The notes under the pieces are model-generated. The model had not been told where the DNA came from. It worked only from the letters and a program-made list of their open reading frames with translations, and made no database searches. From Planctomycetales bacterium (GTDB lineage: Bacteria > Planctomycetota > Planctomycetia > Isosphaerales > Isosphaeraceae), in the NCBI GenBank assembly GCA_027449865.1, contig DAIDKV010000124.1:1-64000 (forward strand): a stretch of 64,000 nucleotides of DNA, given 5' to 3'. This document shows positions 2,594-38,707 of the stretch, in pieces (positions within the stretch are counted from its first letter, which is position 1; each line of letters opens with the position of its first letter). The position numbers were made by a program, and so were the translations under genes.

Positions 2594-5500
2594 TTAGACC
2601 ACCGAGACGCGGAGGCGATCCTTCTTCTGGAGCTGGACCTGAAGCTGGATCGAGTCTGTCAGTCTCTGGCGAATCTGGAGCTGATCGCCCGTGTAAATCA
2701 GGTTGTTGCTGTTGTAGTCGAAGGCGGAGACATAGTTCGCCTGTCGAGGCCGGCTGCCGAAGGCTCGCCGGAATTGCTGCATGTCGAGACGGTTCACCAC
2801 GCCGTCGCCGTTGATGTCTCCGAAGAGCCGGCGGAACCGCACCTGAGCCTGGCTGCCCGTCAGGCCGTTGATGGCCGCGTCCACCGCCTGGCCCGTCGTG
2901 GCATCCAGGATGTGGCTCCCGTCGATTCGGAAAGTGTAAAGACCGTCCCAGAGCGAGCCACCCACAATCCGTGGCCCCTTGAAGGTCAGCGTCGCCACCG
3001 TCTGGCCGTTGACCAGCGCCGTCGAGACGTTCAGGTTCACGGCCCGGCCCAGTCGGTCACGAAGATTGAAGGCGCCAGGCAGAATGGTCACCGGGCCGGT
3101 GAAGGTCACCGTCAGGCTCTTGATCATCGACCGCTGGGCCGTTCCGTCGCCAATGACAACCTGAGCGACCTCGGTCGGCCCAACCGTCACCACGAACTGG
3201 CTGGAACTGCTGCCCCCGTCCTTGTCCTGAACGGTGATTGTGACCACGAACCGGCCGCTTCGGTTGTAACTGTGCGGCAAGGCGCCAAGCGATCCCGTCG
3301 CCCCCTCAACAAAGCCCGAGGTTGTCGAGTCGCCCCAGTTAATGCCGACGTTCCAGGCCCCGTCGGTGGCCGTATCCCAGAGGCTGCCGAGGTTGATGGC
3401 GGTCGGGTCGTTGACCGTGGCCGTCTGGTCGCCCGGCGAGTAAAGCTGAGGAATGATGTTGTCGACCGTGAGAGTCAGCGGCGAAACCGTGGTCGCCGTG
3501 CTCCCGTTGGACGGCTCGGTGGCCGTCGCGGTGACCGTCAGAGGATAGGTTCCGCTATTTGGCGCGACGAGAGTGAGGTTGGCGAGCTGTTGCGGCGAGA
3601 GCTGCCACTGGCCCTGACCCAGGTCCGTCCCGGCCGAGAGCGTGGCACCAGCCGGCACGCCGGCGAGGATCACCGAGAGAACCTCGGTGCTGGCACCGTT
3701 CGCCCGCGTGGCGACGATTCCCAGCGGGATCGGATTGCCGTCTGAGCCGCGAGCATTCGCGACCGTTAGTGTCGGGGCATCGGCGACCGCGGTGATCGCG
3801 ATTGGGATCGTCGTCGTGGACGTCTGCGGTCCGCCGAAGCCGCTGTTACCCAGGTCGTCGACGCTGACGGTCAGACTCCCCGGTCCGTTGAAGTGGGCCG
3901 TTGGGCTGAGAGTTAGACCCGCAAGGGCCGTGTTGATCGCGTCGATCATCCCGGTGGCGACGATCTGACTGCTCCCCGTCGCACTTCCTTGCAAGAAGGT
4001 CAGACCCGAGGCATCGGCCAGAGAGAGCGACCCGTCGGCCGTCGAGATCGAGACCTGCACCGGGTTAGTGCCGGCGTCCGCGTCCGAGACCGAGATTCCC
4101 TCGCCCGTCGTCGTGGAGAACGTCAGCGCGGTGTCCTCCAACGTCGTCGCGGAGGTTGGCGCCACGATCACCGGCGCCTGGTTGATCGGGTAGTTCGCGA
4201 AGGCGTTCCCGGTGAATTGACCCTGGCTCGTCATGGTGACGGTGTAGCTGAACGAGGCTCCCGCGGTCAGTCCGAAGGCAAAGGGAGGAATCTCGGTCAC
4301 CGTGTAGGTGCCCGGGCCGAGATCAGAGATGCTCCAGTTTCCCTGAGCGTCGGCCTGTGTGATGTAGACCGTTGGCGTGGTGGTCTCGCCATTGCCCGAC
4401 CCACCCTGGCCGCCATTGCCGTTCCCGTTGCCCTCGGAGCTCGAGCCTTCGGTGGAGGCCTGTTGCACGAGGATGGTGGCGCCGGCCAGACCCGGCTCGC
4501 CCGAATCTTGCTGGTTGTTCTTGTTCATGTCCTTGTAGGACGTGCCGCTGATCGTGCCCGGGTAGAAGCTTCCCTGGTCCAGACCGAACATCGTCGTGAA
4601 CGAGGCGGAAACCAGGCGGAGCGGCTCGGTGCCGTCGGCGGTGTTGCGGAGCGGGATCGGCGAGCCGCCCCCACTCCGCTGGAGTATCGTGTCGATGAAC
4701 GGCATCTGGGTGACCGAACCGCTGACCGTCAGCGGACGGGTATTGACCATCACGCCGTAGCCGAGCGCGGTCAGGTCGATACTGATGTAGAGAGTGAAGT
4801 TCGCGGTGTCACCCGTGGTCTCGCCGGAAGTGCTCGGGCCGATGGTTCCGGTGGAGGGGAAGAGCCCCAGGGTCACAGTGACCGGGCCGAGGACGGTGGA
4901 GGAACCGCCTTCCGTGGGCTGCGAGACAGCCAGCCCTTCAAGCTGCATGGCGTTGATCTGGGCTGGAAGGAGACCGCTCGTTCCCATCACATCGTGGAAG
5001 ACGTTCATGTCGCCGACGACCGAGATCCGGATCGGTTGGTTGGTTGTGCTCCCCGAGCTCCCCGAGTCGCCGCCGCTTCCCGAGCTACCGGAGCCGGCGT
5101 GCCCGCCGCCACCACCTTGAAGGATGGTGAACTGACCCAGGGTGAAGAGCGAGTCGGTTCCGGAGGGCAGGGTATTGAGCCACCCTGGAGTGGCCGGAGT
5201 CGTGGCCGAGGGCAAGGCTCCAATCTGCTCGCCAGGCGTCACGTCGAGCTGGTACGCCAGCGCTCCCTCGGAAGAGGCTGGTGCGCTCACGATGACCGAG
5301 GTGGACCCAGCCGGGAGGGTAGCCGGCGGGGTCGCGACGACCTGGTAGTGGCCGGCGACGACGTTCGCGAACTGGTAGCTCCCGTGCTCGGTCACCGTCG
5401 AACCATTGATGGTGACGTCCCGAGCGCCGGAGGTCTGAGTCGCGACAGTAAGCCCGGTGTCGAGGTTCACCAGGGAGACGCTCCAGCCGTCCTGGCCGGG

Positions 5501-7570
5501 CTGGCCCGGGGCCATCACGCCGGTCCCGTTGACGTCCTCGAAGGTCTGGCCGGTGATGGTGGCGAGCTGCGAGGGGGCGTAGATCGTCACCGGGGTATCC
5601 TCGACCTCGCCGGTCCCGTCGGGGTTCGCGTCCAGGCCCGAAGCGTTCGCCGGGCCGGTGTTCAGCGTGTCACTGAGCCGGAATCGGGCGTAGGTTGCAA
5701 GCTGGCCGCTCGCGGGCAGGGTCAGCCCCGCGGGAACGACCATGTTGAGGCTCAGCGTGTGTACCCCCGCGGTGAGCGAATAGTTGTCGAGAGTGCCATA
5801 AGTGGAGTCGCCCGAGAGAACGATCTGGTCGTCGGCCCCATTCCCCGTACCGAAGTTGCCAGCGCCGTTGGCGTCGAGCCAGCCGCTGAGGTAACCCGTC
5901 GACCCGGCGGGGACGACCACGGTGATTGTCATCGGGACGGTCGCGCCCGGAGTCAGCGCCGCGCCAAAGGTCACACCGTCGATTACGTAGGTCGGGCTGC
6001 CGTCGTTGGCGAATTCCGTGGTGCCGAGGTGCAGGTTCGGTACGATCGTCTGCGAGGCGACGGGGTAGCCCGGAGCCGTGCTCCGGTTGATCTGGCCAAC
6101 GCCGAACGTGTTGACGAAGTCGTACGTCGAGGTCGAGCCGCTCGCGAGCGTGGCGATGCTGTAGCTTTCACCGTCGGTCTGAAGGCCCAGGTTATTGGCC
6201 GGATCGAGGGTGAGCGGGGCGCCATTGGGCTCGGTAAGGGTGTAGCTTCCTGGCCCGAGTCCGGCAAACGCGTAGTGGCCGGTGTTGTCGGTGTAGACGG
6301 TGATCGGCTGAGTGGGCGCGGGGCCCTGGCCGGCGGGCGGACCACCGGAACCGTTGCTGCTGCCACCCTGACCCGAGCCCTCGCTCGATGGTCCCGCCGT
6401 CTCGGCCGTCTGCTGGAGGATGATCGGCTGGTTGACCAGCGGTGTGGTGGTGCCGTCGGTGTTCTGGATGACGGCTTGACCGGCGATCGTCGCCTGGGCG
6501 AAGTTGGCGAAGTCGAGGCCAGGCGTCGGTGCGAGCGAGCCGAAGATCAGCGTGCCCTGCGACTGATTGTTCGTGTCCAGCAGATCGATCGGCGAGGTGG
6601 TCCCATTGTGAGCGTAGGTACCGCCGAAGCCCGGGAACTGGGCGATCTCGCGGGCGAGGAAATTGATCGGGACCGAGGTATGCAGGACCGTCGGAGTGCC
6701 GAACGCGACGGGGATCACAAGGGTTGCGTTGATGTTGAAGCTGCTGTCGACCAGCGTGTTACTATCGCTTCGGCTGGTGATCTGGCCGGCGGACGGCGAG
6801 GTCAACGACATCGTGATCGTGCCCAGGTAGCCCAGGCCGTGCTGATCGGTCGAGACCGTGCCGACCAGTTGCAAATGGGTCATGGTGGTATTGACCGTGA
6901 CATCGGTCGTCGCCGTTCCGTCGCCACTGGTCGAGGTCGAAACGATCGGCGCCTGGGTCTGCACGGTGGCCTCGCCAGAGAGGAAGACCCGTGTCGGCGC
7001 GGTGCCGTTTGGCCCAAGCTGGAACATGAAGTCGCCAGAAAGAGGGAAGTTGACCGTTTGGGGGGCGAGCGAGGCAAGCCAGTTGGCGGTGGGAGGTGCC
7101 AGGGGCGAGGCGAGGGTTCCGCCCGCCACGTCATTTCCCGGTCCCAACTGGACGACGTAGGACTGAGGCGTGTGCTCAGAAGACGGGGCCGTCTGGATCG
7201 TCCCAGTGACGGCCGGTTCGCTCACCAGATAGGTGCCCGCCGGAAGTTGGGTGAACTGATAATCGCCCTGGCTATCGGTCGTCGTGCTCGGATAGGTCGA
7301 AAGCGTGGCGCCCGTGCTGGGGTCGATCTGAGCGAGGTTAATCGTCACACCGGAGACGCCCGTTTCGCCAACGTCGCGAAGGGCGTTACCGTTCAGGTCG
7401 TTGATCACCTGGCCAATGATGGAGGACAGGAGGCTACGGCACTCCAGCACCTCGATAGGCCCCCGGTATTCGTGTCGGCTGCGCCAGGCCCGGGGAAAAC
7501 GTTGGTGATCACGATCTCGTCGCAGGTTCATCGATTCCATCGCCTGGGTGAAATTCTTTGCGGAAGACAT
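2594..7570 (-). CDS. Giant cell-surface protein with SdrD_B-like repeats, PKD domain and dockerin
   Basis: A 1658-residue extracellular protein. The start at 7570 is chosen because AAGGAGAG lies just upstream; an in-frame ATG at 7681 has no such site. The N-terminus lacks a normal signal peptide but carries LECRSLLSS (42-50), a motif recurring at the N-termini of planctomycete surface proteins. Several SdrD_B/prealbumin-like modules follow, with blocks such as GQVINDLNGN and GTSYKDMNKNNQQDSGEPG, then linkers rich in Gly and Ser. A PKD-like domain (about 1385-1465, with NWGDSTTSG and HSYNRSG) precedes a type I dockerin-like end (from about 1584, GDINGDGVVNRLDM with calcium-loop spacing). The likely role is cell-surface or matrix structure or adhesion. 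No enzyme domain is seen. Confidence 0.85.
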   Translation of the reverse strand: MSSAKNFTQAMESMNLRRDRDHQRFPRAWRSRHEYRGPIEVLECRSLLSSIIGQVINDLNGNALRDVGETGVSGVTINLAQIDPSTGATLSTYPSTTTDSQGDYQFTQLPAGTYLVSEPAVTGTIQTAPSSEHTPQSYVVQLGPGNDVAGGTLASPLAPPTANWLASLAPQTVNFPLSGDFMFQLGPNGTAPTRVFLSGEATVQTQAPIVSTSTSGDGTATTDVTVNTTMTHLQLVGTVSTDQHGLGYLGTITMSLTSPSAGQITSRSDSNTLVDSSFNINATLVIPVAFGTPTVLHTSVPINFLAREIAQFPGFGGTYAHNGTTSPIDLLDTNNQSQGTLIFGSLAPTPGLDFANFAQATIAGQAVIQNTDGTTTPLVNQPIILQQTAETAGPSSEGSGQGGSSNGSGGPPAGQGPAPTQPITVYTDNTGHYAFAGLGPGSYTLTEPNGAPLTLDPANNLGLQTDGESYSIATLASGSTSTYDFVNTFGVGQINRSTAPGYPVASQTIVPNLHLGTTEFANDGSPTYVIDGVTFGAALTPGATVPMTITVVVPAGSTGYLSGWLDANGAGNFGTGNGADDQIVLSGDSTYGTLDNYSLTAGVHTLSLNMVVPAGLTLPASGQLATYARFRLSDTLNTGPANASGLDANPDGTGEVEDTPVTIYAPSQLATITGQTFEDVNGTGVMAPGQPGQDGWSVSLVNLDTGLTVATQTSGARDVTINGSTVTEHGSYQFANVVAGHYQVVATPPATLPAGSTSVIVSAPASSEGALAYQLDVTPGEQIGALPSATTPATPGWLNTLPSGTDSLFTLGQFTILQGGGGGHAGSGSSGSGGDSGSSGSTTNQPIRISVVGDMNVFHDVMGTSGLLPAQINAMQLEGLAVSQPTEGGSSTVLGPVTVTLGLFPSTGTIGPSTSGETTGDTANFTLYISIDLTALGYGVMVNTRPLTVSGSVTQMPFIDTILQRSGGGSPIPLRNTADGTEPLRLVSASFTTMFGLDQGSFYPGTISGTSYKDMNKNNQQDSGEPGLAGATILVQQASTEGSSSEGNGNGNGGQGGSGNGETTTPTVYITQADAQGNWSISDLGPGTYTVTEIPPFAFGLTAGASFSYTVTMTSQGQFTGNAFANYPINQAPVIVAPTSATTLEDTALTFSTTTGEGISVSDADAGTNPVQVSISTADGSLSLADASGLTFLQGSATGSSQIVATGMIDAINTALAGLTLSPTAHFNGPGSLTVSVDDLGNSGFGGPQTSTTTIPIAITAVADAPTLTVANARGSDGNPIPLGIVATRANGASTEVLSVILAGVPAGATLSAGTDLGQGQWQLSPQQLANLTLVAPNSGTYPLTVTATATEPSNGSTATTVSPLTLTVDNIIPQLYSPGDQTATVNDPTAINLGSLWDTATDGAWNVGINWGDSTTSGFVEGATGSLGALPHSYNRSGRFVVTITVQDKDGGSSSSQFVVTVGPTEVAQVVIGDGTAQRSMIKSLTVTFTGPVTILPGAFNLRDRLGRAVNLNVSTALVNGQTVATLTFKGPRIVGGSLWDGLYTFRIDGSHILDATTGQAVDAAINGLTGSQAQVRFRRLFGDINGDGVVNRLDMQQFRRAFGSRPRQANYVSAFDYNSNNLIYTGDQLQIRQRLTDSIQLQVQLQKKDRLRVSVV

Positions 7571-8295
7571 GATGCTCTCTCCTTGATCGGACGCGCCGAG
7601 GTCGTCTCCTCTGACATCGGGCGAGGGGTGCGCGAAGGCTCCCCGGTCGCATCGGCCAACCGGCGGCCTGCGTTGGATCACGAACCGGCCTGACTACGCT
7701 CCGCCTGATCCAGCGAAGCGAGAGCGAGGAAAAGATTCGGACTCAAAAGTCCGTGAACGGATCGTCCCCGTGGGCGGGCACCATACCCGAAGCGAGACGC
7801 GGCAGCCATCACCGCGACCATCACGCCGTACGTCGGTGGACAGGAACGTAAGAGGCGTGAAGCGTGTTGGCTCTCGAAGGCAAGAATTCACGAGAGCCAG
7901 GCCATCCCTGGATCAGACCCAACTTGAGTCCTATCTACCTTTATATTAGTCCTCCTCGCGGATTACGTAAAGAGGCAACCGGAGAAACCGCAAATTCTGA
8001 TGCGACTGATCCACAAGCCGTCCAGAAACGCGCTCCCTAAACGGCGCGGGGCCATCTGATCCGAGAGGGAGTGTAGGGTGAACGATCCCCATGGCCACGA
8101 ATCCGGGAGCTGACTGAGAGAGGCCGACGGCCTTTGTCGGGAAGGCCCTCGGCGGTGGAGAGGATTCCGGTCTTCAGGAGGGAAAGGGTCGGATTGTGGC
8201 GGCTTTCCGGATGTCCGATTGCCGAGGCGGGTTCGATCCGGCACAATACCCTGGCATCGCCGGACCGCTTCCGCTGACACCTTGCGAGATCCGAA
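7571..8295. other. 725-bp divergent intergenic region, no gene seen
   Basis: It separates the minus-strand surface protein from the plus-strand oxidoreductase. Open frames on both strands are compositional shadows. A 9-bp inverted repeat, TGGCTCTCG (7868-7876) and CGAGAGCCA (7891-7899), forms a hairpin with a 14-base loop, and an AT-rich patch (7937-7950) near it may hold a promoter. I cannot assign a precise -35/-10 pair. The length suggests long leaders or complex regulation for the surface gene. Confidence 0.4.
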
Positions 8296-11568: not shown

Positions 11569-11976
11569 TCAGAGGTCATCCAGCGGGATCAGATCGAGCC
11601 CCGAGTCGTCCGCATCCCAAAGATCGTGCGCGGCCGAGGCGGGAACCGGTCCGGGACGCGACGGGGCCGCCGGCGCCGGAGCCATCGCGGGCTGACCCTC
11701 GAAGCGAAAGAGAATCGGCCCGATCGCCACCTCGTCTCCAGGCTGAAGACGCACCTCTTCAACCATCCGACCATTCACGCGAATTCCGTGCCGGCTGCCC
11801 AGATCGCGAAGGATCACGCGGTCGTAGGCCATCGCGACGCAGCAATGACGCCGAGAGATCTTTCCGCTATCAATTCGGGCGTCGCACTCGGGATGACGGC
11901 CAATCAAAAGGACGGGCCGATGCAGGGCGATGGTCGGCGCCGATCCCCGCGTCAGAGGGACGAGTTGGAATGACAT
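11569..11976 (-). CDS. FHA-domain protein (second of pair)
   Basis: A 135-residue protein whose first 95 residues form a forkhead-associated domain that binds phosphothreonine peptides. Diagnostic residues are IGRHPECDARI (25-35), SRRHC (41-45) and LGSRHGIRVNG. The C-terminal 40 residues are Ala/Pro-rich and end in an acidic tail. The start overlaps the end of the upstream FHA gene by 25 bases, so translation is probably coupled. FHA proteins read the output of Ser/Thr kinases, which planctomycetes carry in number, but no kinase gene is present here. Confidence 0.85.
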   Translation of the reverse strand: MSFQLVPLTRGSAPTIALHRPVLLIGRHPECDARIDSGKISRRHCCVAMAYDRVILRDLGSRHGIRVNGRMVEEVRLQPGDEVAIGPILFRFEGQPAMAPAPAAPSRPGPVPASAAHDLWDADDSGLDLIPLDDL

Positions 11977-12575
11977 TCCTCAAGGGGCTCCGGGGCATGG
12001 GCCGAGGGACGATCGTCGGGATGGAGCGAGGCCAATGGCCCCTCCGCCTCCGGAACCTGCACAATCACCTGAATCCGACACTTATCGGCCAGACCCGCCG
12101 GGAGGCATCTCCGAACCGCGGCGGCCAGGGAATTTTCGTCCGGGCCGGATGGGGGAGTCGGAGCCAGCAGTGGAGAGGCCAGCATCGGCGAATCCGGAAC
12201 GGCCGGTGCCTCGAGCCCCGACGCCGGACGAGGATCGTTTCGACTCGAAAGGGAAGGGAGCCCACCCGGCTCGGCGATCGTGTGCTCGTGACCTTGCCCG
12301 TTCTCGACCCGGTATCGAATGTGCGCGATCGAGAGCTCATCGCCCGGATGAAGCCGGCCGTATTCCACGCGCTGGCCGTTGATCCGAATGCCGTTGGTGC
12401 TCCCCAGATCCCTCACGACGACGTCACCGCTCTCCTGCGTCATGCAGCAGTGATGTCGTGAGACACGAAGCGAATCTAGCCGCGTGTTGCAATTCGGATG
12501 GCGGCCAACGACGACTATGCCACGATCGAGCGTGATATCCGGCCCTTCGTCTAGCGCCACCAATCGTACAGGCAT
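11952..12575 (-). CDS. FHA-domain protein (first of pair)
   Basis: A 207-residue protein with an N-terminal FHA domain: VVGRHPNCNTRL, SRHHC and LGSTNGIRINGQ are the classic phosphopeptide-binding signatures. The second half is a Pro/Ser-rich linker followed by a short domain with SLAAAVRRCLPAGLADKCRIQVIVQVP in two parts, not recognised. The start at 12575 follows a GAGGA-type site; an upstream in-frame extension has no family similarity. It is a paralogue of the downstream FHA gene, with which it overlaps. Role: phosphothreonine-dependent scaffold, partner unknown. Confidence 0.85.
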   Translation of the reverse strand: MPVRLVALDEGPDITLDRGIVVVGRHPNCNTRLDSLRVSRHHCCMTQESGDVVVRDLGSTNGIRINGQRVEYGRLHPGDELSIAHIRYRVENGQGHEHTIAEPGGLPSLSSRNDPRPASGLEAPAVPDSPMLASPLLAPTPPSGPDENSLAAAVRRCLPAGLADKCRIQVIVQVPEAEGPLASLHPDDRPSAHAPEPLEECHSNSSL

Positions 12576-29633: not shown

Positions 29634-31031
29634 TCAACTATGCTGGAGCTGGTTGATCTTGTTGTAGAGGGTCTTGAGGCTGATCCCCAGCTCACGTGAG
29701 GCGGCGGGCTTGTTCCCGCTGTGCTTCTCCAGCACCGCCTGGATGTACTTCATTTCGATGTCGCGGAGAGTTGGGTTGCCGTCGGGGATCTGGAAATGGG
29801 GGCCGGTGTTCGATCCGGCCGAACCGGACGTCGTCTTACCGCGAATCGGGGCCTGAGTCGGCAGGTGCTCGGAGAGGATCGGTCCGTCGCCCGCGAGGAT
29901 CGTGGCTCGCTCGATCATGTTGGCGAGCTCGCGGATGTTTCCGGGCCAGGCGTGCGATTGCAGGACTTCGAGCGCCTCGGGGCTGATGGTCGCCTGCGTC
30001 AGTCCTCGGCGCGAGGCATAGCGCGCGAGCATGTGCCGGGCTAGCGCGGGGATGTCTCCCTTGCGCTCGCGGAGGGGCGGCAGGAAGATTTCAAACGTGT
30101 TGAGCCGGAAGAAGAGGTCCTCGCGGAACTGCTCGTTGGCGACCATCTCGCGGAGGTCGCGATTGGTGGCACAGAGAACCCGAACATCCACCCGGAACGG
30201 CTCATTCTCGCCGACCCGCCGGATCTCGCCCGATTCGAGGAACCGCAGGAGCTTGACCTGGACGCTCTTGTCCAGTTCGCCGACCTCGTCGAGGAAGAGG
30301 GTGCCGCCGTTGGCGACCTCGAAGAGGCCCTTGCGGTTGGAATCAGCGCCGGTGAAGGCCCCCTTGCGGTGGCCGAACAGTTCGCTCTCGACGAGGTTCT
30401 CCGGCAGGGCGCCGCAGTTGACCGGGATGAAGGCCCGATCGGCACGCTTGCTCTTGTCGTGCATGTTTCGGGCGATCAGTTCCTTGCCGGTTCCGGTTTC
30501 GCCCAGGATCATGACGGTGGCGTCGGTGGGGGCGATGGTCTCGACCAGGCGGCGAACCTGCTGCATGACGGGCGTCTCGCCGATCATCACCGGAGCGCCC
30601 TCGGCGGCCTTGAGCCGGGTCTCGAGGGCGGTGGTCTTGTTCGAGAGGTCGCGACGCTCGGCGACCCGGGTCAGGATCATTTCCAGCTCGGCCCACTTGC
30701 AGGGCTTGGTCAGGTAGTCGAAGGCGCCGGCGCGGAGCGCCTGGACGGCCGTGTCAACGGTCGCGTGGCCGGTCAGCATGATGACCTGGGTGTCGGGGCT
30801 CATCTGTCGGATCTGACCGAGGACATCGATCCCGGTGAGACCTGGCATGCGGATATCGAGCAAGGCCGCATCATACGAGCCGCGTTCGAGGGCGCGGAGG
30901 GCGGCGGTCCCATCAGGACAGACGGTGACCTCGTGTCCCATTCGGGGGAGTTCCATCTGCATCAGGTCGCGGAGGTGGGCCTCGTCATCGGCGAACAGAA
31001 TTCGCAATCCCCCCTGGCGGCTCTTTTCCAT
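29634..31031 (-). CDS. NtrC-family sigma-54 response regulator
   Basis: A 465-residue activator with three domains. The receiver domain (8-122) has its phosphorylation site at Asp59 in LLDIRMPG. The AAA+ domain (about 148-385) has Walker A GETGTGKE (177-184), the sigma-54 contact GAFTGA (224-229) and Walker B LFLDE (245-249). The C-terminal Fis-type helix-turn-helix covers about 425-462. It activates sigma-54 promoters by ATP hydrolysis when phosphorylated. The histidine kinase gene lies 102 bases upstream on the same strand and is the obvious partner. Target genes are not visible in the window. Confidence 0.95.
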   Translation of the reverse strand: MEKSRQGGLRILFADDEAHLRDLMQMELPRMGHEVTVCPDGTAALRALERGSYDAALLDIRMPGLTGIDVLGQIRQMSPDTQVIMLTGHATVDTAVQALRAGAFDYLTKPCKWAELEMILTRVAERRDLSNKTTALETRLKAAEGAPVMIGETPVMQQVRRLVETIAPTDATVMILGETGTGKELIARNMHDKSKRADRAFIPVNCGALPENLVESELFGHRKGAFTGADSNRKGLFEVANGGTLFLDEVGELDKSVQVKLLRFLESGEIRRVGENEPFRVDVRVLCATNRDLREMVANEQFREDLFFRLNTFEIFLPPLRERKGDIPALARHMLARYASRRGLTQATISPEALEVLQSHAWPGNIRELANMIERATILAGDGPILSEHLPTQAPIRGKTTSGSAGSNTGPHFQIPDGNPTLRDIEMKYIQAVLEKHSGNKPAASRELGISLKTLYNKINQLQHS

Positions 31032-31133
31032 GAGACGGATCCTCCGTGATTATGCGGGCCTTCCGCGGAAGCCAGGCCGTTCCCATCGGGGATCGGAAGG
31101 GGCCGGGGCGGAATCTTGCGGTTTCGTTTCGGT

Positions 31134-32768
31134 TCAGGCTGTCGAGACCGGTTCGGCCCGACGCCGGACGCCGAGCCTCGACCGACTGGATGGGTCTTCG
31201 ACCTCGATCTCGGTCGGGTGGATCGGCAGGCGGACGGTGAAGGTCGAGCCCTTGCCCGGCCCCTCGCTGCTGGCGCCGATCTCGCCGTGGTGCTGGTTGA
31301 TGATCCGGTGGGTGATCGAGAGTCCCAGGCCGGTCCCTTTCCCCTCGCGACGCCGGGTAAAAAATGGCTCGAAAATGTTCTCCAGGACGTCGGGCTCCAT
31401 CCCGCAACCGTCGTCGGTGAAGGCCATCTCGGCCATCCCCTGCGTGTATCGGGCCTCGATCCGAAGCGTCCCCTGGTGGTCCATCGACTCCAGCGCGTTG
31501 ACGATCAGGTTCAGGACAACCTGCTTTATCTCCTGGCTATCCACGTGCGCCATCACGGCCTCACGAGGGTGGAAGGAAACCTTCTTCCCCCGATACTTGC
31601 CGATGTGCTGAATCATGTCGACCACGCCCTGAATCAGGCCGGCCAGGTCGGTGCGCTCCCGGGTGATCTCGTTGCATCGCGAGAAGTCGAGTAGCTTCTC
31701 GGTGATGCTCTTGCAGCGGAACGCCTCCTCCTGAATCATCTTCAAATACTTGTTCACAGTGGCAGATTCGGCGTCGTCCGATCCAGTGAGGGATCGGGAG
31801 AGCCGGAGGTCCAGAGCCTCGGCGCAGAAGGCGATGGAGGCGAGCGGGTTGTTGATCTCGTGAGCAACACCCGCGGCGAGGAAGCCGACACCGGCCAGCC
31901 GCTCGGATCGAACGAGCTGCCGGCTCCGCTCCTGCACCTGCCCTTCGAGATCCTTGTAGGTCACGCTGATCTGAGCCGTCATCTCGTTGAACGCTTCGGC
32001 GAGATCCTGCATCTCGTCGCCGGTCGCGAGGTTGATCTTGTAGTCGAACGAGCCGCGGGCGACGTGCCGAACCCCGCGCTGGAGCATCCGGACCGGGGAA
32101 AGTACCCAACGGTGGAGGAGCACCGTCAACGCGTAGAGCATCCCCAGCACCATCACGAACGATGACCAGACGATGATCCGGCTCATCTTGTACTGCCCGC
32201 TCGACTCCTGAAGCACTGCCCAGAAATCGAGGTGGAGCTTGGTCGGTAGCTGGCTGACCGTCTCATATAGCCGGTCGACCCGCCGCCTCATTCCGGGCTC
32301 GGCCGTCTTGAATTTCGGGAGCAGGTCGGCGTAGACGGTCGTCCCGGGGAAAAGCGGGGGGATGGGCCCGCTGTCCGGGTCGAGCTCGTTGAGAATGCAG
32401 GTCAGGTCCTCGTCCATCAGGAGAGCCAGACCCAACTCGTCGAGGCCACTGTCGGCCCGATTTCCCTGGGTCGCGTTCTTCTTCAGCTCGCGATGGTAGA
32501 CCTTGAGCGCCGCACGGGCCTCGTGAACGCGCTTCAGAAGGTCGCGGCGATCGGCCTCGCTCGAACCCTCCCGAGGGACATGCAGGCGGAAGACCGCGGC
32601 GAAGAGGTTTGTCGAGGCCCCGATCTCGCGAAGCTGGTCGCCAAGGGTCAGATTGCTGATATGGAACGAATGGAGCCCGAAGATCGAGCCGCCCATCAGG
32701 ATCAGCATCATCCCCACGACGAGGCCGAGCCCGACCATCAGCTTCAGGCGGATCGGCCAGCGGAACAT
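31134..32768 (-). CDS. Membrane sensor histidine kinase
   Basis: A 544-residue kinase. Two membrane segments (about 10-32 and 198-220) enclose a periplasmic, mostly helical sensor of about 165 residues. A HAMP linker follows (about 218-272), then a coiled coil, the HisKA domain with phospho-acceptor His303 in AAGVAHEINNPLAS, and the ATPase domain with N box LNLIVNALES, G1 DDGCGM and G2 GKGTGLGLSI. AAGGAGG precedes the ATG. It should phosphorylate the adjacent NtrC-type regulator. The signal sensed is not apparent from the sensor domain. Confidence 0.94.
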   Translation of the reverse strand: MFRWPIRLKLMVGLGLVVGMMLILMGGSIFGLHSFHISNLTLGDQLREIGASTNLFAAVFRLHVPREGSSEADRRDLLKRVHEARAALKVYHRELKKNATQGNRADSGLDELGLALLMDEDLTCILNELDPDSGPIPPLFPGTTVYADLLPKFKTAEPGMRRRVDRLYETVSQLPTKLHLDFWAVLQESSGQYKMSRIIVWSSFVMVLGMLYALTVLLHRWVLSPVRMLQRGVRHVARGSFDYKINLATGDEMQDLAEAFNEMTAQISVTYKDLEGQVQERSRQLVRSERLAGVGFLAAGVAHEINNPLASIAFCAEALDLRLSRSLTGSDDAESATVNKYLKMIQEEAFRCKSITEKLLDFSRCNEITRERTDLAGLIQGVVDMIQHIGKYRGKKVSFHPREAVMAHVDSQEIKQVVLNLIVNALESMDHQGTLRIEARYTQGMAEMAFTDDGCGMEPDVLENIFEPFFTRRREGKGTGLGLSITHRIINQHHGEIGASSEGPGKGSTFTVRLPIHPTEIEVEDPSSRSRLGVRRRAEPVSTA

Positions 32769-32943
32769 GGCGACCTCCTTGTCGCGGGGATCATAAATCG
32801 GCAAAACGCCCCCGAGGGCGATAGCGTCCGGACTATAACAAAAAGACTCAAGGGGTCAAAGACCCGTTCAGAGGCCCTACGTTCTTTCGCCAGAACTCCA
32901 AAAATTCCAAGAAGATACGTTCGCAAGGCCCTCGCTGGCGCTC

Positions 32944-36064: not shown

Positions 36065-36538
36065 TCAAGGGGCCGAGCCTTCCTCCGGCGGTTCCGCGGT
36101 TTGTCTCGTGCCGCTCGAATCCTCGCGAGGCCCCACTGGGCGGTGATCGCCGGAGGCGGTAGCGTCGGGGGGAGGTTCCACGGACGAATCGTCATCCGTC
36201 CGGTCCAGCCCGACCGCAATCCGCCGATAAGCGCTGGAGAGCCGGTCGCGATCGTCCTGGTAGCCCCGCACGCTTTTTTCGAGCCGATCGATGGCCTCAT
36301 CCCGGGCGGTGAGCCGGCGAAGGTCGTCGAGAGCTCGGTCGGCGTAGTCCTGGTTTTGAGCTTCGAGGGCAAGAACACGGTCCTTGAGCCGGGCGTTCTC
36401 CGTACGAAGCGAGTTTGTCAGCCGTTGCGATTCCTCGAAGCGATCGCGAGGGACCACCGCGCAACCGGAGAGGATCGCCGAGGCGAGAACCGCCGCGAGG
36501 ACCTTCCCGATCGATCGAGACACGACCAGCTCGGCCAT
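36065..36538 (-). CDS. Putative coiled-coil lipoprotein
   Basis: A 157-residue protein. The lipobox is ILSGC (about 22-26) after a hydrophobic VLAAVLASA segment. Residues about 32-105 form a long heptad-patterned coiled coil (RLTNSLRTENARLKDRVLAL and onward). The rest is a Pro/Asp-rich, probably unfolded tail. It would sit on the outer or inner membrane as a spacer or assembly factor. It is followed by unrelated exported-protein genes. The gene upstream on the same strand is the HTH/membrane protein, 84 bases away. Confidence 0.75.
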   Translation of the reverse strand: MAELVVSRSIGKVLAAVLASAILSGCAVVPRDRFEESQRLTNSLRTENARLKDRVLALEAQNQDYADRALDDLRRLTARDEAIDRLEKSVRGYQDDRDRLSSAYRRIAVGLDRTDDDSSVEPPPDATASGDHRPVGPREDSSGTRQTAEPPEEGSAP

Positions 36539-36622: not shown

Positions 36623-38167
36623 TCAGCCGCCGAAGAGGCCGGCGATCGCCTGGACGAGCCCGTGAGCCGGCCCGCCCTCTCGGAATTCGTAGAGGTTTCG
36701 GGCCATGTCGAAGGCGACGAAGCAGACAAGGAACATCAGGAGCGTGGTGACGCTGAGCAGCCCGATCCAGAGCCCGCCCCACTCGGCCTCGGCCTCTCGC
36801 GAGAGGACCACGGCCGGGCCGCCTCGCTCAGCGCCGGCGGAGCTGGAGTCGGAGGACGACCAGGCGGTCGCCATCTCGCTGGAGACGGCTGATTCGAAGC
36901 CGTCGTCGTCCTCGTCGTCGTCATCGGCGAAGGCGGCCGGGGCCATCGCGGTCGCGGCATTCTGGTCGACCGCCTCCTCGTCGATCGCGAAGACCTCCGA
37001 GGCGCTGTCGCTCTCCTCCAGCTCGAAGTCGCTGGCGGCCTCGAGTTGCATCGTCTGGTCGTCCGACGAGTCGTCGTCGGAGAGCGGAACGTCCACCTCG
37101 AAGTCGGTGTCGTCGAAGATGTCCTTCTCGCCCTTCTTCGTCGCGGGGGGCGGCGTCGAGGCGAGCGACCTCTTGGGGACCGACGGCTTGGCGGACGAGG
37201 ACGGCTTGGCGGCCTTCGTCGTCGGCAGTTCCTCGTCGCTCAGCGGGGCGAGCTCGATCGAATCAGCCTGTCCGAGTCCGAAGCCCGAGGCCTGCTGAAG
37301 GTTGATCCCGGAGTCGCTCGGCCGAGAGAGGTTGATCCCCGACATATTCGGGTCGGCGGCCGTCACGTCCGAGTCGCTTGGCTTGAGCGGCGTCGCCTCG
37401 AACTCGTCGCTCGCGTCCAACGCGGTCAACTCGAAGTCGCTCCCCGAGTCGGGCTGCAAGGCGTCGATCAGCTCACTGGAGGGGTTCAGGTCGAAGTCGC
37501 TATCCGACTGGCTGGCGGGAACCTCGGCCGACGAACCGAAGAACGGTGATGAGCGGATGCCCGAGCCGCTTCCCGGTGTTAAGATCCCGTGGTCGGCCGT
37601 GTCGTCCTTCACAAGCGTCACATCCGAATCGCTCGGCCGGCGCAGACCCGAATCGGAGACTGCGAGCCGGACATCGGAATCGCTCGCGCCATGAACATTG
37701 TCCGGGACGAGCCGGACGTCGGAATCGCTCGGGTGCTTCCCCGTGCTGGAGACGCCGATAATCACCGAGCTCGAGCCCGTCACCGGGTTCGGCGGCAGCG
37801 AGAGGTCATCGAGCAGGATATCGTGCTCCGATGAACCCTCGGCATCGGACGCCTTGCCCTTACCAAAGTTCATCGTCTCGGCGCCGAGGTCAGGCCGGGC
37901 GACCCCAAGTTGGAACTCCGAGAGGTCCAGGTCGTCGACCGACGAGCCCGGAGCGCCCGCGGGCGTCTCCAGATCAGAAAGGTGCAGTTCGGCATCACTG
38001 CCCAGCCCGCGACGTCGCGCGAGCTCATCAATGTCGACGACACGGAATCGCCACGATCCGCCGTCGAGAAAGGCGCGGACCTCGCGTGACTGGGCCTTGC
38101 TCTTCAGCTCCTCGGCGCTCATGCCCAGGACCCGGGCGGCCTCTTCGAGTGTATAGAACTGAGCCAT
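36623..38167 (-). CDS. HTH protein with SDSD repeats and C-terminal membrane tail
   Basis: A 514-residue protein with an unusual build. Residues 1-55 form a MerR/excisionase-like helix-turn-helix (FYTLEEAARVLGMSAEELKS, then WRFRVVDIDELARRRG). Residues about 100-330 contain at least seven variants of a short repeat, (P/A)SDSDV(R/T)L, spaced irregularly. About 330-450 is very acidic, with runs of Asp. One membrane segment (about 473-495, IGLLSVTTLLMFLVCFVAF) lies near the C-terminus. GAGGAG stands 7 bases before the ATG. The likely topology is a cytoplasmic HTH and repeats held at the membrane by a tail anchor. Function is unknown; the repeats could be phosphorylation or FHA-binding sites (inference). 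Confidence 0.8.
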   Translation of the reverse strand: MAQFYTLEEAARVLGMSAEELKSKAQSREVRAFLDGGSWRFRVVDIDELARRRGLGSDAELHLSDLETPAGAPGSSVDDLDLSEFQLGVARPDLGAETMNFGKGKASDAEGSSEHDILLDDLSLPPNPVTGSSSVIIGVSSTGKHPSDSDVRLVPDNVHGASDSDVRLAVSDSGLRRPSDSDVTLVKDDTADHGILTPGSGSGIRSSPFFGSSAEVPASQSDSDFDLNPSSELIDALQPDSGSDFELTALDASDEFEATPLKPSDSDVTAADPNMSGINLSRPSDSGINLQQASGFGLGQADSIELAPLSDEELPTTKAAKPSSSAKPSVPKRSLASTPPPATKKGEKDIFDDTDFEVDVPLSDDDSSDDQTMQLEAASDFELEESDSASEVFAIDEEAVDQNAATAMAPAAFADDDDEDDDGFESAVSSEMATAWSSSDSSSAGAERGGPAVVLSREAEAEWGGLWIGLLSVTTLLMFLVCFVAFDMARNLYEFREGGPAHGLVQAIAGLFGG

Positions 38168-38275
38168 GGACGTGCTCCTCGCGGTCGTGATCGGTTCGGC
38201 CCTGTGTCAGCCGTCGCTCGTCGGATGGAAGGTTGGGTTGGAAGACCCCGACCGCGGTTGCCGGATGTCTCCCGC

Positions 38276-38707
38276 CTATCGATTCGATCGGTTCAGCGCC
38301 TCGAGCCGCGCCTTGACGTCCGCCGGGACCAGCCCCTGATTGTTGTAATCGTCGAGGCCCAGATCCCACTCGAAGTGGCGCGATGCTTCCAGCTTGACGC
38401 TCCCCTGGGGATTCGTCGGGTCGACCCGGTAGATGGCGAAGGCCCGCTTCTTCGTGTCAATCAAGTATAACCACTGGATCGGCGGGACAGCCGAAGGATT
38501 GGTGATCAGGGCGAGGATGCCGTTCGCCTCTCCACTGGCCTTCGCGGCCGCCGGAGGAGACGACCGCATCGTTCCAGGAGGAAGGCCCACGTCCTGCGCC
38601 CGAGCCCCCGCCGGTTCCCCGTGGAAGCCCGCGCCCCAGCTCAGGAGCACCCCCAGCGCCACGCCGGGAACCCCGTACCTCAACCATCCGACAATCCGAG
38701 CCGACAT
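38276..38707 (-). CDS. Small membrane-anchored or exported protein, unknown function
   Basis: A 143-residue protein from an ATG preceded by GGAGGAGGG. The N-terminus has one hydrophobic stretch (VPGVALGVLLSWGAGF) that may be a signal peptide or anchor. The rest includes IQWLYLIDTKKRAFAIYRVD, which reads like one strand pair of a beta-propeller-like unit, and a DUF-type ending. I do not recognise a family. It lies 109 bases upstream of the HTH/SDSD gene on the same strand, so they may share a transcript. Confidence 0.7.
   Translation of the reverse strand: MSARIVGWLRYGVPGVALGVLLSWGAGFHGEPAGARAQDVGLPPGTMRSSPPAAAKASGEANGILALITNPSAVPPIQWLYLIDTKKRAFAIYRVDPTNPQGSVKLEASRHFEWDLGLDDYNNQGLVPADVKARLEALNRSNR

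Follow-up and report, generated by a model that had tools for sequence, protein, structure and literature searches.

The window analysed here, i.e. the whole stretch of 64,000 nucleotides from a Planctomycetales bacterium, contains a gene whose product combines a helix-turn-helix (HTH) domain, a long acidic arm and a membrane span, and the question raised by this locus is what such a protein binds, DNA or another protein. The envelope and the cell biology of planctomycetes are unusual, and to our knowledge functions have been assigned to few of the conserved proteins peculiar to them. Automatic annotation would tend toward 'DNA-binding protein' in this case, because the protein libraries (Pfam and NCBIfam) name the domain only as a HTH domain. 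The features of the locus are collected in Table 1.

Table 1. Features of the locus; positions refer to the window, residues (aa) to the translated protein.
Feature	Position	Strand	Description and basis
Focal gene	36623..38167	-	ORF, 514 aa, ATG start; winged helix, acidic repeat arm and C-terminal span
GAGGAG, likely ribosome-binding site	38175..38180	-	7 bases 5' of the ATG; read from the sequence
HTH_17 / MerR-BldC-Xis-type winged helix, aa 4-53	38009..38158	-	Pfam, model, fold matches
Repeat SDSDVRL, aa 147-153	37709..37729	-	Pattern search
Repeat SDSDVRL, aa 162-168	37664..37684	-	Pattern search
Degenerate repeat SDSGLRR, aa 171-177	37637..37657	-	Pattern search
Repeat SDSDVTL, aa 179-185	37613..37633	-	Pattern search
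Degenerate repeat SDSDFDL, aa 221-227	37487..37507	-	Pattern search
Degenerate repeat SGSDFEL, aa 241-247	37427..37447	-	Pattern search
Degenerate repeat SDSDVTA, aa 264-270	37358..37378	-	Pattern search
Degenerate repeat SDSGINL, aa 284-290	37298..37318	-	Pattern search
Arm segment of highest acidity, aa 345-425	36893..37135	-	Judged by eye on the translation; conservation
Conserved threonine motif DQTMQL, aa 370-375	37043..37060	-	Form DxT-hydrophobic-x-hydrophobic; motif count, conservation
Membrane span, aa 468-486	36710..36766	-	Hydropathy
Upstream neighbour, 143 aa (chosen start)	38276..38707	-	N-terminal membrane helix and five-strand beta region; homologue profile, model
Downstream coiled-coil protein	36065..36538	-	Lipobox-like LSGC (by eye); homologue profile, Pfam

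HTH_17 was the sole Pfam domain found in the protein (29.5 bits, the cut-off being 27), and the NCBIfam excisionase model TIGR01764 scored 18.6 bits on it, below its cut-off of 28.8. AlphaFold, supplied with an alignment of 55 sequences, modelled aa 1-50 as a winged helix with block-mean pLDDT values from 90 to 94; the model, 66 residues long, closes with a helix at positions 43-52 and low confidence. The hydropathy profile has a single peak (value 2.53), with 28 residues beyond it: the protein is C-terminally anchored (tail-anchored), having one span near the C-terminus and no other. The intervening arm is rich in Ser and Asp, and the 145 arms analysed average 24% acidic and 6% basic residues. 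The coexistence of a MerR/excisionase-like HTH, an acidic region and a C-terminal span in one protein, noticed in the original prediction from the sequence, is confirmed by Pfam, AlphaFold and hydropathy.

The modelled domain has a fold of the DNA-binding type, as had been supposed, and its closest structural matches are to DNA-binding proteins, with the reservation that Z values under 8 may reflect just a common arrangement. The best one is BldC (6ama_H; Z 8.3, rmsd 2.0, 53 residues aligned), followed by RdfS (Z 6.8, rmsd 2.6, 53 aligned), the Xis of Pukovnik (Z 6.8, rmsd 2.2, 52 aligned), CbpM in complex with the CbpA J-domain (3ucs_B; Z 6.1, rmsd 4.2, 60 aligned) and RacA (5i44_G; Z 5.8, rmsd 4.7, 58 aligned). 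The domain thus shares the fold of BldC, Xis and HTH_17 proteins. Foldseek pointed to a chain of DafA (9dvi_S; E 0.12, 26% identity), and DafA was also among the five matches of a PDB sequence search with the domain profile (E 0.13, a lead only), as was 5ikf, weakly. The other three matches, 8vd6 (CAP REPEAT), 7bqb (NF6) and 8a3k (sc-apCC-4), which we take to be designed proteins, align with helical segments and were discarded.

In order to evaluate the surface of the domain, 30 non-redundant members (55 sequences cut at 70% identity) were compared with 38 HTH_17 domains of the phylum, which are presumed, not known, to bind DNA and are mostly best-scoring hits. These controls include nine domains from the window's own genome and 29 best hits from a sample of 40 genomes; They exclude L117, which is the focal domain itself, and L118, in which the domain could be placed only poorly. 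Acidic residues occupy position 19 in 27/30 members and 1/38 controls, position 20 in 24/30 and 1/38, and position 35 in 27/30 members but in none of the 38 controls. The window protein carries Glu19 and Glu20, whereas the controls mostly have Arg, Lys or Ser at position 19, and Thr at position 20 in 31 of 38 cases. Over aa 4-50 the net charge is -2.17 for the members, -2 for the window's own domain and +3.34 for the controls. The turn and recognition helix (aa 17-28) give a family mean of -0.73 against a control mean of +1.24, the window, at +1, being near the controls. The wing is positive throughout (+2.70 in the family, +2 in the window, +3.71 in the controls), with Lys or Arg kept at position 40 in 24/30 members and at position 42 in 29/30.

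From these residue frequencies, the family as a whole appears to have lost the basic recognition surface of its winged helix. DNA binding is weakened by the conserved acidic surface positions and by the net negative charge of the domain, and by analogy with CbpM protein binding by the winged helix seems more likely. An excisionase, or an ordinary transcription factor, was not adopted as the straightforward interpretation, since the protein escapes the NCBIfam model and acidic residues occupy two sites in the recognition helix and one in the wing.

We know of no acidic arm, repeats or membrane span in CbpM. It has nevertheless, like DafA of Thermus, which is similar in fold, the MerR-type winged helix of the focal domain, and the published account (PMC4063869), which names a Tyr and an Arg, describes CbpM as lacking the residues that are conserved among its MerR relatives for contacting DNA, and its fold as serving protein binding, the partner being the CbpA J-domain. 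According to this account CbpM dimerises through a coiled coil, a point of difference from the focal protein.

The arm is distinguished by its repeats. At least seven irregular copies of SDSDV(R/T)L had been predicted; the exact form occurs three times (starting at aa 147, 162 and 179), and the predicted number holds only when SDSDFDL, GSDFEL, SDSDVTA, SDSGINL and SDSGLRR are counted as well, for a total of about eight repeats including degenerate ones. The sequence between aa 55 and aa 470 was shuffled 5,000 times, and in none of the shuffles were the observed counts reached: SDSDV occurs 4 times (shuffle mean 0.0098), SDS[DG][VI]x[LV] 4 times (mean 0.0056) and [SG][DG]S[DG][VIFL]x[LV] 6 times (mean 0.02). 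Composition was rejected as the source of the repeats, whose counts are hundreds of times those of the shuffles. Over 31 family members, with five near-identical or partial sequences (L005, L009, L015, L018 and L024) left out, the residue of the window is matched with a mean identity of 0.83 for the repeat columns, comparable to the 0.85 of the domain, and 0.59 for the rest of the arm and 0.44 for the span.

In the own genome, a DNA pattern for SDSDVxL gave six matches, three of them within the focal gene; the others decode as SDCDV, TDSDV and RDRDV, so that SDSDVxL is absent elsewhere in this genome. The motif is kept in relatives, whose lack of it would have counted against the original prediction: SDSDV is present in 43/43 entries of the window's family, with one to four copies each, and in 25/25 entries of f2, another family of the class, with five to nine copies, some genes being entered twice. 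Two further families, f3 and f4, represented by four entries from two genomes, have no SDSDV, and the loosest pattern matches twice in each. Among 120 entries from other classes, SDSDV was found once, in the tandem-array protein L180, and the loosest pattern once, in L198. As a repeat, SDSDV therefore appears, in the sequences compared, to be confined to two families of the window's class.

A second type of motif, centred on threonine, recurs in many arms. In the 145 arms [DE]xT[IVM]x[LIVM] was found 69 times against 10.1 expected, and T[LFIVM][LIVMF][DE] 59 times against 21.7 expected, the sequences being related and the counts consequently not independent. The arm of the window holds one motif of the tested forms, DQTMQL, which lies outside the repeats.

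The gene is present as a single copy in its own genome, and a relative was detected in 43 of the 45 genomes of the family, own genome counted. Searches for relatives in genomes were confined to the phylum Planctomycetota. Matches to the full-length protein with E up to 1e-3 were obtained in 72/294 genomes, and matches to the domain profile with E up to 1e-6 in 87/99 sampled genomes, the own genome being counted in both cases and the weakest of the 87 possibly corresponding to ordinary HTH_17 proteins. Best matches were read for 74 of the 87 genomes, and for G111 as L055; the 12 left out comprise the weakest. One domain, followed by an arm and at least one span, was found in 70 of these 74 (own included), the exceptions being L172 and L175, which have no span, L193, which is longer, and L195, with two domains and a span. 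Members with one domain, a span after aa 100 and a length of at most 560 aa were termed ordinary, and 5 of 70 such members have more than one span. Arm length and arm sequence change from one class to another, and classes other than that of the window lack the repeats. A scan of genome contigs with the full-length protein yielded three confirmed loci, all in planctomycetes. The protein is a variant of a known fold, in an unusual architecture conserved across the phylum.

The gene neighbourhood was evaluated by six-frame profile searches, whose counts are independent of the gene caller. The upstream neighbour, hereafter beta protein, belongs to a conserved planctomycete family with no Pfam match over the cut-off, characterized by the motif LYxxDTxxQxLAVY and by an invariant Arg further on; its model is of middling quality (pLDDT 71.8, pTM 0.43), and a PDB search with its fold gave no match with E under 0.35. 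Homologues of the downstream lipoprotein carry an OmpA domain in some lineages, and no OmpA domain was found by Pfam in the protein of the window itself.

The beta protein lies upstream in 12/12 contexts of the family, 1/1 of f3, 1/1 of f4 and 13/19 of other classes, and the lipoprotein lies downstream in 10/12, 0/1, 0/1 and 10/19 contexts respectively, counts that are partly circular, since the neighbour profiles were built from the context sets. Partly independent values come from the phylum sample, which shares some genomes with the context sets and includes two loci, L161 and L197, from one genome: the beta protein was found upstream in 46/70 ordinary members against 0/29 HTH_17 control loci, and the lipoprotein downstream in 34/70. 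Outside the 70 are 20 entries, i.e. the own locus L149, L193 and 18 without a span or with another architecture. In f2 both neighbours are absent nearby in 9/9 contexts, and the beta protein was not found anywhere in 9/9 genomes; for this reason it cannot be an obligate partner. Gene order alone does not establish function.

Other neighbours recur at lower frequency. Within 8 kb, contexts of other classes contain a GspE/PilB-type ATPase (5/19), a GspF-type protein (7/19) or a HAMP histidine kinase (7/19), types named by BLAST cluster and confirmed by Pfam only in L098 for T2SSE/T2SSF and only in L086 and the window for the kinase. Gene calling for these contexts was simple: it overlooked the focal gene in 8/43 cases, where the gene was then entered by coordinates, and it may have overlooked or misplaced other genes. 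Downstream of the focal gene the window encodes a HAMP histidine kinase together with a response regulator of the sigma-54 type (29634-32804, minus strand), and such a pair is found downstream in most family contexts in which the focal gene was called. A PspA family gene, identified by Pfam, lies directly upstream of the focal relative in L074 (8180-8734) and L081 (11146-11703), preceded in both by a putative ECF sigma factor gene (by eye). A phosphatidylserine decarboxylase gene adjoins the relative in L091 (11230-14064) and L099 (8476-9150), and a LemA gene is located further on in L091.

The same domain is also found in other architectures, which were picked as unusual and therefore show existence, not frequency. 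Reading frames L179-L184 contain four to eight copies of the domain and no span, some copies scoring only 12-15 bits. By eye, several copies in these frames are followed by motifs such as EPTIMV or DATMVV, and the tandem-array protein of L180 holds one SDSDVSL. In another group, domain, arm and span are followed by a HlyD-type region; L188 and L190 exceed a Pfam HlyD cut-off there, and L189, L191 and L192 stay below it, L189 having Biotin_lipoyl above its own cut-off. Such fusions would make the domain cytosolic and the C-terminal side periplasmic. An FHA domain is joined to one copy of the domain in L185 and L186, the latter also with a MshEN domain, and to two copies and two spans in L194. 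In L187 (856-4737) a frame of 1294 aa without Pfam matches carries a single weak domain copy, located after a sigma-factor-like stretch (by eye) and followed by a span.

The reading that we favour, with a confidence that stops somewhat short of even, is that the focal protein acts at the inner membrane as a docking (scaffold) component in a planctomycete cell-envelope assembly, with a MerR fold that would bind a protein. It is drawn from the acidic surface, the CbpM-like fold, the HlyD-type fusions, the tandem arrays and the envelope-related neighbours. In the arrangement we infer, the winged helix would be cytosolic and would most likely bind a protein partner in the manner of CbpM, which is MerR-like; the arm, acidic and probably disordered, could offer its several SDSDV-x-L motifs to a second partner or to a kinase; the C-terminal span would serve as anchor, placing the 28-residue tail outside the cytosol, and the beta protein and the coiled-coil/OmpA lipoprotein would be periplasmic and outer-membrane or cell-wall partners. 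A broader and more doubtful extension is that planctomycetes share, across the phylum, a module built on a MerR/BldC winged helix turned protein-docking domain; carried on acidic motif-bearing arms, singly or in arrays of up to eight, in inner-membrane proteins, periplasmic adaptors and FHA proteins, it might couple cytosolic signals, perhaps phosphorylation, to a trans-envelope machine of periplasmic beta protein and OmpA lipoprotein.

The main rival to the docking reading is membrane-tethered DNA binding, in which the span would hold DNA or a regulator at the membrane, as in a RacA-like tether or a membrane-controlled transcription factor. Chromosome tethering and membrane-controlled transcription were the functions suggested by the original prediction. 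They are compatible with the fold, since HTH_17 is above the Pfam cut-off, the closest folds are those of DNA-bound BldC, Xis and RacA, the Arg/Lys residues of the wing are kept and the recognition helix of the window is net +1. They are not favoured, however, by the conserved acidic residues on recognition helix and wing, the net negative domain, the four to eight tandem copies in span-less proteins, the HlyD-type adaptors and the envelope neighbours, and we consider this explanation unlikely. Somewhat less likely still is a phospho-signalling scaffold, with Ser/Thr kinases phosphorylating the arm and FHA phosphopeptide binders reading the marks. The fusion of FHA domains to focal-type domains and the excess of threonine motifs in many arms, counted on related sequences, give it indirect support, but the three fusion loci were picked because the reading frame or the number of domains was unusual, the window protein has serine motifs as repeats, and FHA domains have a high specificity for phosphothreonine (PMC3146460). 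The reading of the SDSD repeats by FHA proteins, as initially envisaged, is thus unsupported, the repeats carrying serine where phosphothreonine is expected and the FHA genes of the window being distant. These are two overlapping genes (11569-12443, minus strand) about 24 kb from the focal gene, the second of which aligns with the FHA profile at positions 29-66 only and may be a split or shifted gene. Phospho-signalling via the arm may, on the other hand, be added to either the docking or the DNA-binding reading.

Two further explanations appear improbable, to a similar degree. The protein might be an envelope-stress sensor, in which arm and domain retain a stress protein (PspA, LemA or a histidine kinase) on the membrane as long as the envelope is intact. 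PspA genes directly upstream in two loci, phosphatidylserine decarboxylase genes adjoining in two others, one with LemA near, and histidine kinases within 8 kb in about a third of the other-class contexts and further downstream in the window fit this scheme; such neighbours, however, are found in few contexts, histidine kinases are common, and the commonest neighbours are different ones. Alternatively, the arm might be a structural spacer only, i.e. a charged brush whose repeats are a by-product of composition. The acidic average composition of the arms, their variation from class to class in both sequence and length, and the lack of repeats outside the class would suit a brush, but the excess of the repeats over composition by hundreds-fold, and their conservation in the window's family and in the second family, argue against it.

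Should the domain be a protein-binding module, many planctomycete 'regulators' would be misnamed, and the beta protein and the lipoprotein would become candidates for a common envelope complex. If it grips a protein partner at the envelope rather than DNA, an old fold has been put to a new use.

Partial resemblances to known systems may be noted. RacA, the chromosome anchor of Bacillus, links DNA and the cell pole via a coiled coil and DivIVA; it has a MerR-type winged helix like the focal domain, but the membrane span of the focal protein is part of the protein itself. RodZ consists of a cytosolic HTH binding a protein, a membrane span and an extracytoplasmic tail. It resembles the focal protein in layout and differs in the type of HTH, which is Cro-like, and in having no known repeats. 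Tol-Pal is a trans-envelope set with an OmpA-type lipoprotein; in sets of this type an inner-membrane protein is encoded with such a lipoprotein, as in some relatives of the focal gene, the likeness lying in gene layout. At position 20 HTH_17 controls mostly have Thr and at position 19 Arg, Lys or Ser, the focal family having Glu or Asp, which sets it apart from them. In the open-access papers searched, titles and abstract openings gave no description of the protein, the SDSDV repeat or the domain family, and the text of a study on planctomycete kinases (PMC11032199) contains neither 'helix-turn-helix' nor 'MerR'. Elsewhere in the window, a surface-type protein of 1695 aa with SdrD_B, SpaA and dockerin domains is encoded at positions 2594-7681 of the minus strand.
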